Positions 27,576 to 54,388 of a stretch of DNA of 64,000 nucleotides are shown in pieces. The notes beneath the pieces were generated by a model, which saw only the letters and a list, made by a program, of their open reading frames with translations, ran no database searches and had not been told where the DNA came from. Within the stretch, counting starts at the first letter, position 1, and each line of letters begins with the position of its first letter. This stretch comes from Rhodoluna sp. (GTDB taxonomy: Bacteria; Actinomycetota; Actinomycetes; Actinomycetales; Microbacteriaceae): contig JAHEDR010000001.1 of the NCBI GenBank assembly GCA_024641095.1, forward strand, positions 632,387 to 696,386, in the 5' to 3' direction. The position numbers and the translations under genes were made by a program.

Positions 27576-28157
27576 TTAGTTGTTTCCAACGCCAGTAGCG
27601 CTTGCTGCGTACTTCTGAATGTGATCGATGAAACCGTACTCAAGAGCCTCTTCGGCGCTAAACCAACGGTCGCGGTCTCCGTCTTGCATGATCTGCTCAA
27701 GTGACTTTCCAGTCTGCTCGGCGGTGATCGAAGCCAACTGACGCTTCATGGACATAATCAACTCGGCCTGAGTTTGAATGTCTGAAGCCGTTCCACCAAA
27801 ACCACCGTGTGGCTGGTGCAACAAGACGCGTGTGTTTGGGGTTGCATAACGCTTGCCTTTGGTGCCAGATGAAAGCAAGAACTGCCCCATTGATGCACAC
27901 ATTCCAATACCAACTGTCACGATGTCATTCGGCACGTACTGCATGGTGTCGTAAATGGCCATACCAGCAGTGATTGAACCACCCGGTGAGTTGATGTAAA
28001 GGTAAATGTCCTTTTGTGAGTCCTCAGCGGCAAGAAGCAAAATCTTTGCGCAGATCTCGTTTGCCATGTCGTCTCGAACTTCAGTGCCTAGCCAAATGAT
28101 TCGGTCCTTAAGTAGACGATCAAATGTGCTGCTTGGGCCCTTTGGTGAGTCAGCCAT
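27576..28157 (-). CDS. clpP1: ATP-dependent Clp protease proteolytic subunit ClpP1
   Basis: A 193-residue ClpP with the catalytic triad Ser89 (GMCASMGQ), His114 (LLHQPHGG) and an Asp near 163 (DGDRDRWF). It is the first gene of the clpP1–clpP2 operon. A TTGACA is present about 40 bases before the ATG and GGAG about ten bases before it. I saw no clear ClgR operator. Confidence 0.96.
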
Positions 28158-28259
28158 TGAAGTACTCCTATTTCTTGAGGTTGCCTGTCAAAGATAACCG
28201 CAAGAACACAGAAAACACCGATGTGTTCGCCCGTGGCTAAAGCCGCGCCCCGAGGCTAT

Positions 28260-29123
28260 TTAGCCAACCTGTTGCACCGTGACGATCAGGCCAGGAATGG
28301 AAGGAATGCCATTGGTGGCGTCAACCGATTCAATGGTCATTGTGGCATCGGTGGATGCCCAGAAAAGCTGCACCGATTGGCCAGCAGCCACGTTAATCAT
28401 GAAATTCCAAGCAGCAACAAAGGCGCCTGATTTTGAATTTCTGTTTGCCACGATATCGATGGCGGTATCACTCCAAGGAACGTTTACCCCACCAACTTTG
28501 AGCCAAATGTCTGCAGTCTGGTTGCCGGTTGCAGTCTTGAACATTTGAGCAGAAAACTGAATATTGTAAACACCGGCGGTTGTGAAGATCATCTTGGTTG
28601 AATCGGTTGGGTCAATGGAAACACCGTTTGAGGCAATCGTTTGATTCAGTGTCATGCCTTTGCCAGCACTCGCCGAAGTTTGGTCGGTGGTGTCGTAGAA
28701 AGAGCCATATTTAGGAATGAAGCCGGCAGCTCCTGCTGGTCCGGTTGCGCCGGTAGGTCCGGCTGGGCCTGCAGGTCCGGTTGCACCAGTGGAACCGCTG
28801 CCAGATGAACCAGCCGGGCCAACCAAAGTCTTAAGCCAATCGGCAACCGTGCCGGTGTAGCCGTTCTGCTGCGCCAATTCAAAGTTTGAATAACCGCGCG
28901 ATCCCTGAAGCCCGGCGCCATTGATTAGGACTCGTTTTTCTCCAGTCTTGCAAGCAGTGCGCAAGTAAACCTGGCCAGATGAATTCTTAAAACATGCGTA
29001 GGTTCCCGCAGATGCCGCATTCGAGGATGCAAAACCTGGAATAACCACGAACCAGGCGGTCAAAGAAACTATGGCGGCAATAAGTGCCGCAACTGAACCG
29101 TTTATTACGTGGTGTTTTTTCAT
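28260..29123 (-). CDS. Secreted or surface collagen-like protein with C-terminal jelly-roll domain
   Basis: A 287-residue exported protein. Residues 12-35 form a signal or anchor helix after KKHH. Residues 41-73 contain a two-Cys motif (TYACFKN … TACKTGEKR) common before bacterial collagen-like tracts. A linker ends in GTVADWLKTLVG. A Gly-X-Y tract of about eleven triplets with one interruption covers residues 102-134. The last 150 residues look like a beta-rich domain (GVYNIQFSAQM, AAWNFMINVAAGQSVQLFW), which I recall from phage virion proteins and C1q/TNF-like trimeric heads. It probably forms a trimeric stalk with a head outside the cell. It sits alone between clpP1 and tig; an SD (GGGGGA) precedes the ATG. 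Confidence 0.75.
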   Translation of the reverse strand: MKKHHVINGSVAALIAAIVSLTAWFVVIPGFASSNAASAGTYACFKNSSGQVYLRTACKTGEKRVLINGAGLQGSRGYSNFELAQQNGYTGTVADWLKTLVGPAGSSGSGSTGATGPAGPAGPTGATGPAGAAGFIPKYGSFYDTTDQTSASAGKGMTLNQTIASNGVSIDPTDSTKMIFTTAGVYNIQFSAQMFKTATGNQTADIWLKVGGVNVPWSDTAIDIVANRNSKSGAFVAAWNFMINVAAGQSVQLFWASTDATMTIESVDATNGIPSIPGLIVTVQQVG

Positions 29124-29170: not shown

Positions 29171-29200
29171 AAGAAACCCGCCTCTAGGGGCGGGTTTCTT
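29171..29200 (-). terminator. Rho-independent terminator after tig
   Basis: A 12-bp perfect stem, AAGAAACCCGCC paired with GGCGGGTTTCTT, with a six-base loop. It lies just past the tig stop on the minus strand and separates tig from the collagen-like gene. Confidence 0.9.
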
Positions 29201-29211
29201 AAAAACGAAAA

Positions 29212-30531
29212 TTAGTCGTGGTCGTGACCTGCATGGTCATCAACAACACTTCCAGCATCTAGCTTTGTGAACTCAGATAGGTCAACCTTCTTACCCTTTG
29301 AGTCGGTCACTTCTGCAGACTCAACCACAAGAGCAAGAGCCTTGCGACGAGAAACTTCGGCAACGAACATTGGCACTTGGCCCTGCTCGCTGATCAACTT
29401 GATGAAGTCATTAGGTGCCATACCGTACTGCTGTGAGCTCTGAACCAAGTACTGAATAAGCTCCTGCTCATCAACCTTGATTTCTTCCTTCTCGGCAATT
29501 GCGTCAAGCAACATCTGAACCTTGAATGAACGTGTGCTCTGCTCAAGAACCTCAGCGCGGTGCTTTGTGTCTTCTAGACGGCCTTCGCCTTCTAGGTGAC
29601 GGTGCACATCTGCTTCAACAAGCTCGTCTGAAACTGGAACATCAATTAGCTCAAGTAGCAAATCGGTTGCCTTGTCGCGTGCCTGAATTCCTTGACCGTA
29701 GCTCTTTGAGCGTTCGATCTGCTTCTCTAGGTCTTCCTTTAGCTCCTTCAGAGTGTCAAACTCCGATGCCAGCTGTGCGAACTTGTCGTCTGCAGCTGGA
29801 AGCTCACGCTCTTTCACTGCAGTTAGCTTCACTGAGATTTCAGCTTCCTGGCCGGCCTTGTCGCCGCCAACCAACTTTGACTTGAAAGTAGTTGCTTCGC
29901 CAGCGGTAAGAGTGTCTAGGGCCTCATCGATGCCATCAAGAAGGTTGCCAGAACCAATTTCATAAGAAATGTTTTCAGCTGAGTCAATGGTCTTGCCGTC
30001 AACAACTGCAGTCAGGTCAATAGTTGTGAAGTCACCCTTTTTAGCTGGGCGGTCAACTGACTTTAGGCTTCCGAAACGAGCACGAAGTGCATCAAGCTCT
30101 GCCTCTAGCTCCTTTGCCTCAACCTTTACGTCGTCAACCTTAACCTTTAGACCCTTGTATTCCTTAAGGTTTAGTTCTGGACGAACCTCAACTTCAATTT
30201 CAACAATTAGGTTGCCTTCAAAAGTCTTCTCGTCTGGGCTCTGCTTAATATCTGCAGCTGGCTGACCAAGTGGACGAAGCTTTGACTCTTCAAGAGCCTG
30301 GCGGTACACAGTGTCTAGTCCATCGTTAATTGCGTGAGCAAGAATTGCCGGACGACCAACGCGCTGATCAAGAATTGCAGCAGGAATTTTACCCTTGCGG
30401 AAACCAGGAATGTTTACGGTCTCTGCGATGTGCTCGTAAGCGTGATCGATGCTTGGACGGAACTCTTCAGGAGTAACTTCAATAGTTAGCTTCGCGCGAG
30501 TTGGCTTAATGCGATCAACAGCAGTTTTCAA
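29212..30531 (-). CDS. tig: Trigger factor
   Basis: Trigger factor is the ribosome-bound chaperone and peptidyl-prolyl isomerase. The 439-residue protein has the N-terminal ribosome-binding domain with GFRKGKIP (near residue 44), a central FKBP-type domain (KKGDFTTIDLTAV … GSGNLLDGID) and a helical C-terminal domain. It ends in a His/Asp-rich tail, DDHAGHDHD. The start is TTG at 30531, with GAGGAAG about eight bases upstream. A longer frame exists, but it runs through tRNA-Pro and is an artefact. Confidence 0.94.
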   Translation of the reverse strand: MKTAVDRIKPTRAKLTIEVTPEEFRPSIDHAYEHIAETVNIPGFRKGKIPAAILDQRVGRPAILAHAINDGLDTVYRQALEESKLRPLGQPAADIKQSPDEKTFEGNLIVEIEVEVRPELNLKEYKGLKVKVDDVKVEAKELEAELDALRARFGSLKSVDRPAKKGDFTTIDLTAVVDGKTIDSAENISYEIGSGNLLDGIDEALDTLTAGEATTFKSKLVGGDKAGQEAEISVKLTAVKERELPAADDKFAQLASEFDTLKELKEDLEKQIERSKSYGQGIQARDKATDLLLELIDVPVSDELVEADVHRHLEGEGRLEDTKHRAEVLEQSTRSFKVQMLLDAIAEKEEIKVDEQELIQYLVQSSQQYGMAPNDFIKLISEQGQVPMFVAEVSRRKALALVVESAEVTDSKGKKVDLSEFTKLDAGSVVDDHAGHDHD

Positions 30532-30598
30532 GGGCTCTTCCTCTGAAAAGGGCCCGCCTCCACAAGGAAGACGAGCCAGTTTTATTTCATAAATTTGG

Positions 30599-30671
30599 TC
30601 GGGGTGACAGGACTCGAACCTGCGATATCCTGCTCCCAAAGCAGGCGCGCTAGCCACTACGCTACACCCCG
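30599..30671 (-). tRNA. tRNA-Pro (TGG)
   Basis: A 73-nt tRNA on the minus strand. The acceptor CGGGGTG pairs with CACCCCG and the discriminator is A. The anticodon stem CCTGC/GCAGG encloses TTTGGGA with anticodon TGG. The T-arm contains GGTTCGAGTCC. It lies 67 bp upstream of tig. Confidence 0.95.
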
Positions 30672-30752: not shown

Positions 30753-30826
30753 GCGGGCGTAGCTCAATGGTAGAGCCTCAGTCTTCCAAACTGATGGTGC
30801 GGGTTCGATTCCCGTCGCCCGCTCCA
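30753..30826 (+). tRNA. tRNA-Gly (TCC)
   Basis: The acceptor GCGGGCG pairs with CGCCCGC; the discriminator T is at 30823 and an encoded CCA follows at 30824-30826. The anticodon loop CTTCCAA carries TCC, and the T-arm has GGTTCGATTCC. It is divergent from tRNA-Pro. Confidence 0.95.
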
Positions 30827-51074: not shown

Positions 51075-51175
51075 TGAACAAGCCTAACCCTGCCAGTTTC
51101 CTGAGGATTTAGGGCCTTGGAATAACGCCCAAAATTGTGCGGTTAGCCTATAGGTATCCCCTGAAAGAGGTATCT

Positions 51176-54100
51176 GTGTTCCGTTTGGCCAAGCTAAGTG
51201 TTGCAAACCGTTCTGTTGTAGCACTAATCACCGTAATCATCGCTGCTTTTGGATTCATTTCTTTGGGCTCGCTAAAGCAGGAACTGATTCCTTCTTTTGA
51301 AGTTCCGCAGGCAGCAATCGTGACCGCTTACCCCGGAGCCTCTCCAGAAGTGGTTGACCAGCAGGTCAGCAAGGTTATTGAAGACGCAGTGCGCCAAATT
51401 GATGGCCTAGTCAACTCAACCTCTACCTCACAAAGCAACATTTCTATTGTGCGCGTGGAATTTGAATACGGGACAGCAACTGCAAAAGTAACCGAGGACC
51501 TTGCGGCTGCAATCGCAAAGATCAAGTCAACTTTGCCAGCCGATGTTGAACCTAACGTTTTGTCTGGAAGCTTTGACTCCGTTCCAATCATCGCTTTGGG
51601 TGTATCGGCTAACGATGGAAATAACGAGGCAATCGCCCAAACTCTAGAAGATGTGGCCGGGCCGCTTTTTGCACAGGTGCCTGGTGTTAGAGACGTAACC
51701 GTTGCCGGAACCGTTGAGAAACGCATCAACCTTAAGTTGAAGCAGTCAGTGCTTACAGCAAATGGTCTTAGCCAACAGTCAATTACCTCGGCTCTTCAAG
51801 CAAATGGTTTTGTTGTGCCAGCAGGAACTATCGACGACTCTAAGGGTTCCATTTCAGTTGAGGTCGGCACCCCAGTAAATTCTTTGGCAGCATTCAAGAA
51901 ACTTCCCCTTATTGGCACCAAGACCTCGGTTACTACTCCAAGCGCAACCGGCTTCCCTGGCTTTGGCAGTAGCACGCAGATTCCTGCCGGAATCACAATC
52001 CCAAGCACGCCAACTGTAACCACTAGAACCGTTGCGCTCACCATCGATCAGGTGGCAACAGTTTCATATGAAAATGCACCTACCACAAGCATTGCTCGCA
52101 CCAACGGTAAGGCAGCGCTATCGGTTTCAATCGTTAAGACTCAAGACGGAAACACAGTTGCTGTTTCACACGGAGTCCGTGAAAAAATTGCCGAGCTAAA
52201 AGACAAACTTGGTGACGTTACTATCGTGACCGTTTTTGACCAGGCTCCTTTTGTTGAGAAGTCACTTGAAAACCTAAGCACCGAGGGCCTGCTTGGGCTT
52301 GGCTTTGCAATTCTGGTTATCTTGCTGTTCTTGATGTCAGTCCGGTCGACTCTGGTAACTGCAATCTCCATTCCGACTTCAGTTCTGATCACCTTTATTG
52401 GCCTTGGTCAATTCGGATACTCGCTAAACATCTTGACCCTAAGCGCGCTCACGATTGCCATTGGTCGCGTAGTTGACGACTCAATCGTGGTAATCGAAAA
52501 CATCAATCGCCACCTTTCTTATGGTGAACCTAAGCAACATGCAATCTTAAATGCGGTTAAGGAGGTTGCCGGAGCCATTACCGCCGCAACCATCACAACC
52601 GTTGCCGTCTTCTTGCCAATCGCCCTGGTTAGCGGACTCATCGGCGAGATCTTCCGCCCATTTGCATTTACTTTTGCAATTGCCCTAGTTGCCTCGCTAT
52701 TTGTTTCACTAACCATCGTTCCGGTTTTGGCCTACTGGTTCCTAAAGAACCCAGCTATTGCGGCAGCCAAGGCTAAAGACCTTGAGAAAGTTGCCGCTGC
52801 TGCGCGTGAAGCAGAGGAAGAACGCGAACGTAAGAGTTGGTTACAGCGAGGCTACCTACCAATCCTTTCTTGGACTCAGCGCCGCCCGGTAATCACTTTG
52901 ATTGCATCATTCATCGTTTTGATTTTCACCTTTGGCCTGGTTCCATTCCTCAAGACAGATTTCATCGGAAGCTCTGGCTCTAGCGGTTTCGTAGTTAATC
53001 AAACCCTTCCTGCAGGTGCAACTTTTGATCAAAAAGACGAAGCCGCCGCAAAGCTAGAAGCGTTGCTACTAGACAACAAGAGCGTAGACGTCGTTCAGAC
53101 ATCTATTGGTTCTTCGGGTGATGGACGCGTTGCCTTTGGAGCCGCAGCCGGCGGAACCTCTTTGCAGGTGTCGCTGAAGGATGGCTCAGATGCAGTTGCA
53201 ATTCAGAGTGACTTTGAAACTAAATTCGCAGCCGATGCCAGCCTTGGTGAAGTTAAGTTCAGCTCGGGTGGCGGCCCAGGGTTTGGCTCTTCGAGCACCA
53301 TTGACATCAAGGTGCTTGCCCCTACCGATGAAAAACTTCTCGCAGCAATCAATGCTGTTGAGAAGTCCATGCAAGGAACCTCAAACGTTTCGGAGATCAC
53401 AAACTCGCTAGCCGAGACCCAGCGAACCCTGCGAGTAACCGTTGACCGAAAGGCAGCTGCACAACGTGGGCTTACCGAAATTGCGGTTAGTGGAATCGTT
53501 GCCTCAAAGCTTCGCCCAACCAGCATTGGCAATGTCAACCTGAATAATGTTGAGACTCCTATCTACATAGTTCAGACCAACATTCCTAAAACAGTTGCTC
53601 AGATCAAAGCAATTCAAATTCCAACCATGACTGGAACTGTTTCGCTTTCAAGCCTTGCCAAGATTGAACAGGTAGATGTTCCCGTATCAATTACGAGCGA
53701 AAAGGGTGAGCGAACCGCAAAGGTTTCGCTAACTCCAGATGGCGACAACCTGGGAGCAATCTCTGCCGAAGTTACCAAGCGCCTAAACAAGGTGGAGCTG
53801 CCGCTTGGCGCCACAGCAACACTAGGCGGTATCAGTGCAGATCAAGCAGACTCATTTAGTCAGTTGGGCTTGGCGCTTCTTGCCGCCGTTGCGATCGTGT
53901 TCATCGTTATGGTTGCCACATTCTCAAGCCTCATCCAACCGCTGATCTTGCTAATTTCAATTCCGTTTGCAGCAACCGGCGCACTTGGTCTCTTGCTTGC
54001 AACCGATACTCCGCTTGGAGTTCCGTCACTGATTGGAATGTTGCTACTGGTTGGAATCGTGGTTACCAACGCGATCGTGCTTATTGACCTGATCAACCAG

Positions 54101-54388
54101 TACCGCAAACAAGGCAAGCCAATTCGTGAGTCAATCATGGATGGTGCTCGTCAGCGACTTCGTCCAATTCTGATGACGGCACTGGCCACCATCTTTGCTT
54201 TGACTCCAATGGCGCTGGGAATTACTGGCGGTGGCGGCTTTATTTCTCAGCCACTTGCCGTTGTGGTTATTGGTGGCCTGTTCTCTTCAACAGTATTGAC
54301 TTTGGTCATCGTGCCGGTTCTGTACTGGCTAGTTGAGGGCCGCAAAGAACGCAAACTTACAAAAGTTAAAAAGGCTAAGTCTGCATAA
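51176..54388 (+). CDS. RND-type efflux permease (AcrB/HAE family)
   Basis: A 1070-residue inner-membrane pump with the duplicated RND layout: helix 1, a large extracytoplasmic domain, helices 2-6, then the same again. VVDDSIVVIEN near residue 440 carries the proton-relay Asp pair. Segment about 535-570 is a charged cytoplasmic linker (AAREAEEERERKSW). Single-component RND pumps occur in Gram-positives (SwrC-like); no membrane-fusion partner is encoded here. GTG at 51176 has AGAGG seven bases upstream. A strong terminator follows. Confidence 0.9.
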   Translation: MFRLAKLSVANRSVVALITVIIAAFGFISLGSLKQELIPSFEVPQAAIVTAYPGASPEVVDQQVSKVIEDAVRQIDGLVNSTSTSQSNISIVRVEFEYGTATAKVTEDLAAAIAKIKSTLPADVEPNVLSGSFDSVPIIALGVSANDGNNEAIAQTLEDVAGPLFAQVPGVRDVTVAGTVEKRINLKLKQSVLTANGLSQQSITSALQANGFVVPAGTIDDSKGSISVEVGTPVNSLAAFKKLPLIGTKTSVTTPSATGFPGFGSSTQIPAGITIPSTPTVTTRTVALTIDQVATVSYENAPTTSIARTNGKAALSVSIVKTQDGNTVAVSHGVREKIAELKDKLGDVTIVTVFDQAPFVEKSLENLSTEGLLGLGFAILVILLFLMSVRSTLVTAISIPTSVLITFIGLGQFGYSLNILTLSALTIAIGRVVDDSIVVIENINRHLSYGEPKQHAILNAVKEVAGAITAATITTVAVFLPIALVSGLIGEIFRPFAFTFAIALVASLFVSLTIVPVLAYWFLKNPAIAAAKAKDLEKVAAAAREAEEERERKSWLQRGYLPILSWTQRRPVITLIASFIVLIFTFGLVPFLKTDFIGSSGSSGFVVNQTLPAGATFDQKDEAAAKLEALLLDNKSVDVVQTSIGSSGDGRVAFGAAAGGTSLQVSLKDGSDAVAIQSDFETKFAADASLGEVKFSSGGGPGFGSSSTIDIKVLAPTDEKLLAAINAVEKSMQGTSNVSEITNSLAETQRTLRVTVDRKAAAQRGLTEIAVSGIVASKLRPTSIGNVNLNNVETPIYIVQTNIPKTVAQIKAIQIPTMTGTVSLSSLAKIEQVDVPVSITSEKGERTAKVSLTPDGDNLGAISAEVTKRLNKVELPLGATATLGGISADQADSFSQLGLALLAAVAIVFIVMVATFSSLIQPLILLISIPFAATGALGLLLATDTPLGVPSLIGMLLLVGIVVTNAIVLIDLINQYRKQGKPIRESIMDGARQRLRPILMTALATIFALTPMALGITGGGGFISQPLAVVVIGGLFSSTVLTLVIVPVLYWLVEGRKERKLTKVKKAKSA

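Follow-up and report, generated by a model that had tools for sequence, protein, structure and literature searches.

The locus studied here raises the question of why a gene for a collagen-like protein lies between clpP1 and tig in a Rhodoluna genome, where it came from and what its product might do for the cell. An earlier note on this DNA had read the product as a lone secreted protein with a virion-style head that interrupts the usual clpP–tig neighborhood, and had suggested insertion by transfer and a role in adhesion or as a phage-derived surface fiber. The gene and its domains lie in the window (the whole 64,000-nucleotide stretch of DNA that was analyzed) as follows:

28260–29123, minus strand: whole gene for a 287-aa collagen-like protein with a phage-type head (ATG start; open reading frame exact to these ends)
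29028–29123, minus strand: N-terminal hydrophobic signal or membrane anchor, residues 1–32 (hydropathy and alignment)
28920–29003, minus strand: two-Cys module, residues 41–68, with Cys44 and Cys58 (alignment and model, pLDDT ~60)
28815–28886, minus strand: NFELAQQNGYTGTVADWLKTLVGP motif, residues 80–103, ahead of the stalk (alignment and low-confidence model)
28722–28820, minus strand: Gly-X-Y tract, residues 102–134, with one two-residue break (Pfam and periodicity count)
28263–28712, minus strand: C-terminal C1q/TNF/BclA-type jelly-roll head, residues 138–287 (structure model, fold and sequence searches)

The hydrophobic segment covers approximately residues 10–31 (best 19-residue hydropathy mean 2.45) and is followed by an A-S-A at residues 37–39, read by eye as a possible signal peptidase site. 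For the two-Cys module the model weakly suggests a small beta unit of three strands, and both of its cysteines are invariant in the five proteins encoded at this locus, including that of the window. The NFELAQQNGYTGTVADWLKTLVGP motif appears as two short helices in the model, and several matches to PHROG tail proteins span it. In the Gly-X-Y tract, nine glycines follow a strict period of three from residue 110, a count reached in none of 20,000 shuffles of the protein (shuffle maximum 6), and the runner-up among the open frames of at least 100 aa in the window has four periodic glycines. Both traits recognized earlier, the tract and the two-Cys motif, are therefore real, and the tract nevertheless scores 18.1 bits with the Pfam Collagen model (PF01391), below its cutoff of 27.2. 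A full-length model gives the anchor and the stalk low confidence. A consensus scan for promoters and terminators returned counts within those of shuffles and no site at the gene start; a TAGATT-like −10 element ahead of the gene was seen by eye only.

The single-chain model of the head (residues 138–287; built from 84 sequences, namely the window together with the cellular and viral head loci) is a nine-strand jelly-roll with a mean pLDDT of 95.2. Its top Foldseek matches among solved structures are the Bacillus proteins F-BclA, BclA, and BxpB, with the TNF-family ligand 4-1BBL close behind. Structural re-alignment gives Z scores of 17.1 for BxpB, 16.4 for BclA, 15.4 for the central spike of phage phi812, 15.1 for the portal-tail structure of cyanophage A4, 14.3 for the short tail fiber of cyanophage A-1(L), and 14–15 for C1q and TNF-family proteins; among the matches listed, 121–135 residues align at Z 14–17, which places the predicted fold with the C1q/TNF-like jelly-rolls. 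The likeness to phage structural and C1q-like heads proposed from the sequence thus holds. The BclA_C family (PF18573) scores 20.2–20.6 bits against the head (E = 5.5e-4), under its cutoff of 38, and is matched at E ≤ 0.01 by 41 of the 84 head homologs; a PDB sequence search with the head profile gave a best E of 0.16, and with the whole protein a best E of 0.02 (BclA 0.036), a signal that comes largely from the Gly tract. BclA, C1q, and TNF family members are trimers. BclA and other collagen-like glycoproteins of the Bacillus exosporium resemble the window protein in that a C-terminal jelly-roll of the C1q/TNF type (Z 16–17) comes after a Gly-X-Y stalk; however, the structural alignments show 11–21% identity, the host of the window protein is a member of the Microbacteriaceae, and its N-terminus is hydrophobic, whereas that of BclA serves exosporium targeting. 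The streptococcal proteins Scl1 and Scl2 are likewise collagen-like surface proteins, and their NCBIfam models match the Gly tract of the window protein weakly (Scl2 16.6 versus a cutoff of 325; Scl1 17.1 versus 400). They are LPXTG-anchored, as the model names state, whereas the window protein ends in GLIVTVQQVG and has no LPXTG sorting signal.

Predicted viral proteins match the head far better than solved folds do (best TM score 0.92, with 33% identity and E = 2.6e-17), and these matches include collagen and tail-fiber proteins of uncultured Caudovirales. A tblastn search of the head against 50,697 phage records found 12 at E ≤ 0.01 (one phage accounts for two of these) with 25–39% identity, the best being Limnohabitans phage DC33 (E = 1e-19), and IMG/VR holds at least 570 confirmed viral stretches with a related head; the matches of this domain are accordingly not confined to cellular proteins. 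The head had no match in 72,556 plasmid records. With the whole protein, PHROG returned tail fiber, collagen-like tail, and unnamed families (best E = 3.4e-07), whose matches cover the motif at residues 80–103, the stalk, and part of the head, some starting at residue 55. Searched by itself, the head matched none of the PHROG families at E ≤ 0.01, though some of its homologs do; phrog_746 (minor tail protein), for example, is matched by 10 of the 84. The viral copies lie near virion structural genes in five of six neighborhoods inspected. The MW202483 copy has a stabilization protein on one side and a tail-collar gene on the other, the MW202828 copy has terminase and portal genes nearby, the phiAC-1 copy adjoins a putative capsid gene, the L303 copy is flanked by tail-fiber-like and virion structural genes, and the L128 copy is located 3′ of a major-tail-like gene; the neighbors of the DC33 copy are all unnamed. 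The DC33 record (L080, PQ492659.1) is classed as Inoviridae and is 39 kb long. The window gene is not part of a phage structural cassette, its direct flanks being clpP1 and tig.

Cellular and viral versions differ in what precedes the head. When viral contigs were searched with the whole protein, none of the best 80 of 245 matches started before residue 71, so that residues 1–70 have no viral counterpart there; two of the six retrieval patterns came from the N-terminus, and weaker viral matches to the N-terminus only could be missed, since only the best 80 were seen. We counted domain architectures in all 42 cellular loci and in 62 of 80 viral loci (18 omitted), setting apart 6 and 2 open 5′ ends, respectively, and guessing the starts. 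The full series of hydrophobic N-terminus, collagen tract, and C-terminal head is found in 24 of 36 cellular proteins and in 0 of 60 viral proteins. Taken singly, a hydrophobic N-terminus occurs in 26, a collagen tract in 33, and a terminal head in 35 of the 36 cellular proteins (10 complete cellular relatives lack a hydrophobic N-terminus by the rule used), as compared with 0, 5 (collagen before the head), and 45 of the 60 viral ones. The two-Cys motif accompanies the head in 6 of 42 cellular loci, two of which are same-locus relatives, and in 0 of 62 viral loci. Conserved residues of the head were partly selected for, because the retrieval patterns lay inside it. Freshwater Caudoviricetes virion proteins offer the closest head, C1q-like and in some cases accompanied by collagen (L303), and differ in their N-terminus and in the setting of their genes among virion genes. 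Judged by sequence, the head family is common to cells and freshwater tailed phages and the anchor appears to be bacterial; this suggests a common set of contact domains for cells and viruses.

In its own genome (96.5% complete), the window protein is the sole protein with this head. The description as a lone protein is accurate in that respect and does not extend to the genus, in which the head occurs in 12 of 67 genomes, at the clpP1–tig locus in 5 and elsewhere in 7. It is found in 12 of 398 genomes of the family (4 of 85 genera), all 12 of them 1.2–1.6 Mb in size, and in 3 of 396 genomes of a phylum sample, its own included. The closest head, that of L084, is 80% identical. By record titles, some of which may be misnamed in the case of MAGs (e.g., Bifidobacterium breve), the 42 cellular loci belong to Rhodoluna, Aurantimicrobium minutum, Acidimicrobiia, Ilumatobacteraceae, Nanopelagicales, and other Actinomycetota, with a few titled Saccharimonas, Cytophagaceae, and others. 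The N-terminal modules of the five same-locus proteins are homologous (49–97% identical). A profile of this module had no further whole-module match in 67 genus and 329 family genomes; partial matches were found in G031 (residues 11–67 in a 65-aa frame, E = 2.6e-4), and matches to the motif only in G009, G404, and G169. Literature on Rhodoluna or Aurantimicrobium with collagen contained, by title and abstract, nothing about such proteins, and among the papers listed by broader searches none presents, in its title or abstract, a cellular protein of this architecture. A collagen-like bacterial protein that combines a bacterial N-terminus with a phage-type head, optional at a housekeeping locus, is a new form.

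The gene occupies a well-defined slot, whose flanks and edges are:

27576–28157, minus strand: clpP1, flank (Pfam CLP_protease, 5.4e-74)
28224–28241, minus strand: conserved TTTAGCCAC(G/T)GGCGAACA element upstream of clpP1, at the downstream edge of the insertion (10-genome alignment)
29171–29200, minus strand: terminator-like hairpin of tig, at the upstream edge of the insertion (by eye; absent from the output of the consensus scan)
29212–30531, minus strand: tig, trigger factor, flank (Pfam Trigger_N and Trigger_C; start picked by eye within a longer open reading frame)

Both edges are intact. The hairpin at the tig end is also present in empty-site genomes, and the TTTAGCCAC(G/T)GGCGAACA element aligns in occupied and most empty genomes, with G076 deviating in its first half. 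ClgR boxes are located upstream of actinobacterial clpP operons, and we take the conserved element to be a candidate ClgR box. Both flanking genes were found on one contig in 51 of 60 genus genomes searched; 5 of these 51 have the gene (G000, which is the window genome, G030, G017, G070, and G069), 45 are empty, and 1 has an unrelated open reading frame. The gap between tig and clpP1 at the 45 empty sites is 85–194 nt, lengths that were taken from alignment ends and are in some cases overstated by up to ~30 nt. The gene does, therefore, interrupt the usual neighborhood, and it is far from universal there. By pattern reading, seven further genus genomes comprise five empty sites and two in which no tig end could be read upstream of clpP1. 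The unrelated frame, in G082, encodes a 193-aa membrane-like protein (L026:2180–2761, minus strand; no PADLOC match), so the slot accepts other cargo. Among 56 cellular loci, clpP1 and tig accompany the head only at the five Rhodoluna loci, although their lack elsewhere is weak evidence because many cellular loci are short contigs. Two tRNA genes, tRNA-Pro (30596–30671, minus strand) and tRNA-Gly (30753–30826, plus strand), lie past tig, ~1.5 kb from the gene and not at the edges of the insertion.

Based on sequence and structural models, we consider the product to be, with somewhat better than even probability, an exported contact protein, trimeric and anchored in the cell envelope, that carries a phage-type head and is encoded by an optional accessory gene. 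Three chains would join via their C-terminal jelly-roll heads, and from the joined heads a short triple helix of collagen type would begin to fold. The hydrophobic segment at the N-terminus and the two-Cys module would hold the trimer at the membrane or wall of the cell, such that the head may face outward and recognize a glycan or protein carried by particles, by phages, or by other cells. The gene itself would have entered this slot, between the terminator of tig and the element ahead of clpP1, on one or a few occasions, and some lineages would have lost it again. Three precedents make a contact or adhesion role our best guess by analogy: the collagen-like EPclA of an E. coli prophage is described as a trimer in which the C-terminal domain both trimerizes and allows the triple helix to renucleate (PMC3368898), contractile injection systems have been proposed to have acquired C1q-type domains as receptor-binding tips (PMC12923769), and freshwater actinophages are described as having two collagen-like proteins in a variable, possibly host-recognition island (PMC10202952). 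EPclA and EPclB share with the window protein, whose trimer is a prediction, the trimeric collagen stalk, the trimerizing C-terminal cap, and the link to phages; they differ in being prophage-borne and in the phage-fiber domains PfN, PCoil, and PfC reported for them (PMC3368898). The main difficulty for a contact role is the short stalk. Its ~33 residues would measure ~9–10 nm as a triple helix. A typical Gram-positive wall is thicker than this, and a protein whose N-terminus remains in the membrane might therefore not expose its head. Cleavage at the A-S-A could also release the protein instead of leaving it anchored.

The close pair G017 and G070 is under purifying selection, which fits a kept, functional protein: dN/dS is ~0.08 for the head (dN 0.029, dS 0.36) and ~0.11 for the N-terminal module (dN 0.013, dS 0.12), and clpP1 of the same pair has dN 0 and dS 0.22. 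In most same-locus pairs dS is saturated. The dN of the head exceeds that of the N-terminal module 1.4 to 2.7 times in the ten same-locus pairs; G000 and G017, for example, are 42.5% identical in the head and 73.8% in the N-terminal module (dN 0.53 vs. 0.20). We rejected a swapping of heads among the five genes, given that the ratio is already 2.2 in the G017/G070 pair, which accounts for the faster head divergence without swapping, and that the five heads fit better together.

Presence of the gene requires three changes on a tig + clpP1 tree of 20 genomes and three on a tree of an RND permease from 24 of 30 loci, and well-supported branches alone force three changes in one case and two in the other; neither outgroup is clean, and one row of the permease tree that was scored as empty (G087, adjoining the empty G014) is actually unreadable. 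Three changes can be explained equally well by repeated gains or by a single gain followed by two losses. The trees disagree on the positions of G069 and G017/G070: the permease tree puts G069 with G000 and G017/G070 with other genomes, and the place of G069 in the tig + clpP1 tree is weakly fixed. The permease gene, which served as the second marker, encodes a 1083-aa RND-type protein ~22 kb from the collagen-like gene (51137–54388, plus strand; best NCBIfam match 2.9e-163, under the curated cutoff) and was matched in 58 of 67 genus genomes. It replaced rpoB because the C-terminal family of the latter (PF00562) was found in only 33 of the 67 and not in G000.

These data bear on the best surviving alternative, namely that the gene is a vertically inherited cellular one, that phages took the head from cells, and that the patchiness reflects loss from an occupied ancestor. 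The distances among the five homologous N-terminal modules are compatible with the tig + clpP1 tree, constraining the five heads together raises the likelihood over that of a free quick tree, and the empty G009 site shares with the occupied G017 and G070 a TTAGCCACGC stretch beside the conserved element, possibly a footprint of the lost gene. However, the more distant genus lineages that were read are empty at the locus, the permease tree separates G069 from G017/G070, and heads are rare in the phylum sample and very common in viral contigs; we thus regard vertical descent as possible and rather unlikely. The same evidence divides the earlier suggestion of insertion by transfer. The three changes on both trees and the clean, intact edges of the slot agree with it, whereas one gain followed by losses fits equally well, the flanks are housekeeping genes, the anchor modules are homologous, and composition carries no signature of recent transfer (GC 0.514 and GC3 0.497 for the gene; 0.486–0.518 and 0.452–0.555 for neighboring genes).

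More speculatively, streamlined planktonic actinobacteria and freshwater phages may share a pool of exchanged C1q-type heads, carried by phages on particles and by cells on anchored collagen stalks, with the cell copy competing for or masking surfaces that are recognized by phages bearing this type of head; we would assign this a low probability.

It is likewise doubtful that the gene is a recently domesticated phage tail-fiber gene, either a relic or a fiber still usable by phages. In sequence and structure alike, phage proteins are the nearest to the head, phage copies tend to lie near virion genes, and presence at the locus is patchy; against this origin stand the direct flanks, the missing counterpart of residues 1–70 among the best 80 of 245 viral matches, normal GC, the purifying selection in G017/G070, and the many actinobacterial records whose proteins have a similar overall architecture. 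Cellular and viral rows are partly mixed in a quick tree of 89 heads, which has weak deep support and requires six changes of the viral label (one forced by starred branches); a tree that unites all 46 viral heads in one clade is not rejected (p-AU 0.363). The earlier reading as phage-derived is therefore upheld for the kind of head and not for the direction of exchange. An anti-phage function, in which a displayed or released phage-like head would occupy the receptor used by phages with this type of head or bind the fibers of such phages, draws on the occurrence of one head family both in freshwater phages and in freshwater bacteria with small genomes and on a patchy gene with a faster-evolving head, and is improbable in view of the lack of any matching defense family (0 PADLOC families at E ≤ 1) and the purifying selection on the head in G017/G070.

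Returning to the anchored contact protein that we favor, several planktonic lineages with very small genomes (1.2–1.6 Mb, from the family matches) keep an optional collagen-like gene with a phage-family tip, which ties variation at the surface of freshwater bacteria to their recognition by phages in a concrete way that can be tested. The clpP1–tig slot, filled or empty among close relatives, permits clean comparisons.

Related collagen-like genes were observed elsewhere. A 421-aa collagen-like frame in G009 (L009, G009:C23) contains a stretch with two cysteines (CKNTTSGWLSLKTNC) that resembles the anchor module, and lacks this head. Contigs titled as Patescibacteria/Saccharimonas MAGs (L097, L102) encode collagen proteins with a head of the same family. 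In the collagen-like proteins of L085, L103, L118, and L004, which have the same head, a "KRWKSLQLGPGTIYI...GIKFPDG"-like segment precedes the last collagen tract and by eye resembles a phage fiber shaft. Another head-bearing collagen gene is found at a locus shared by L006 (G008) and L074 (G062), where repeated SAYELWLxxGNTGxxxDFLxSL motifs occur and a neighboring gene reads like that of a metallo-beta-lactamase-fold protein.
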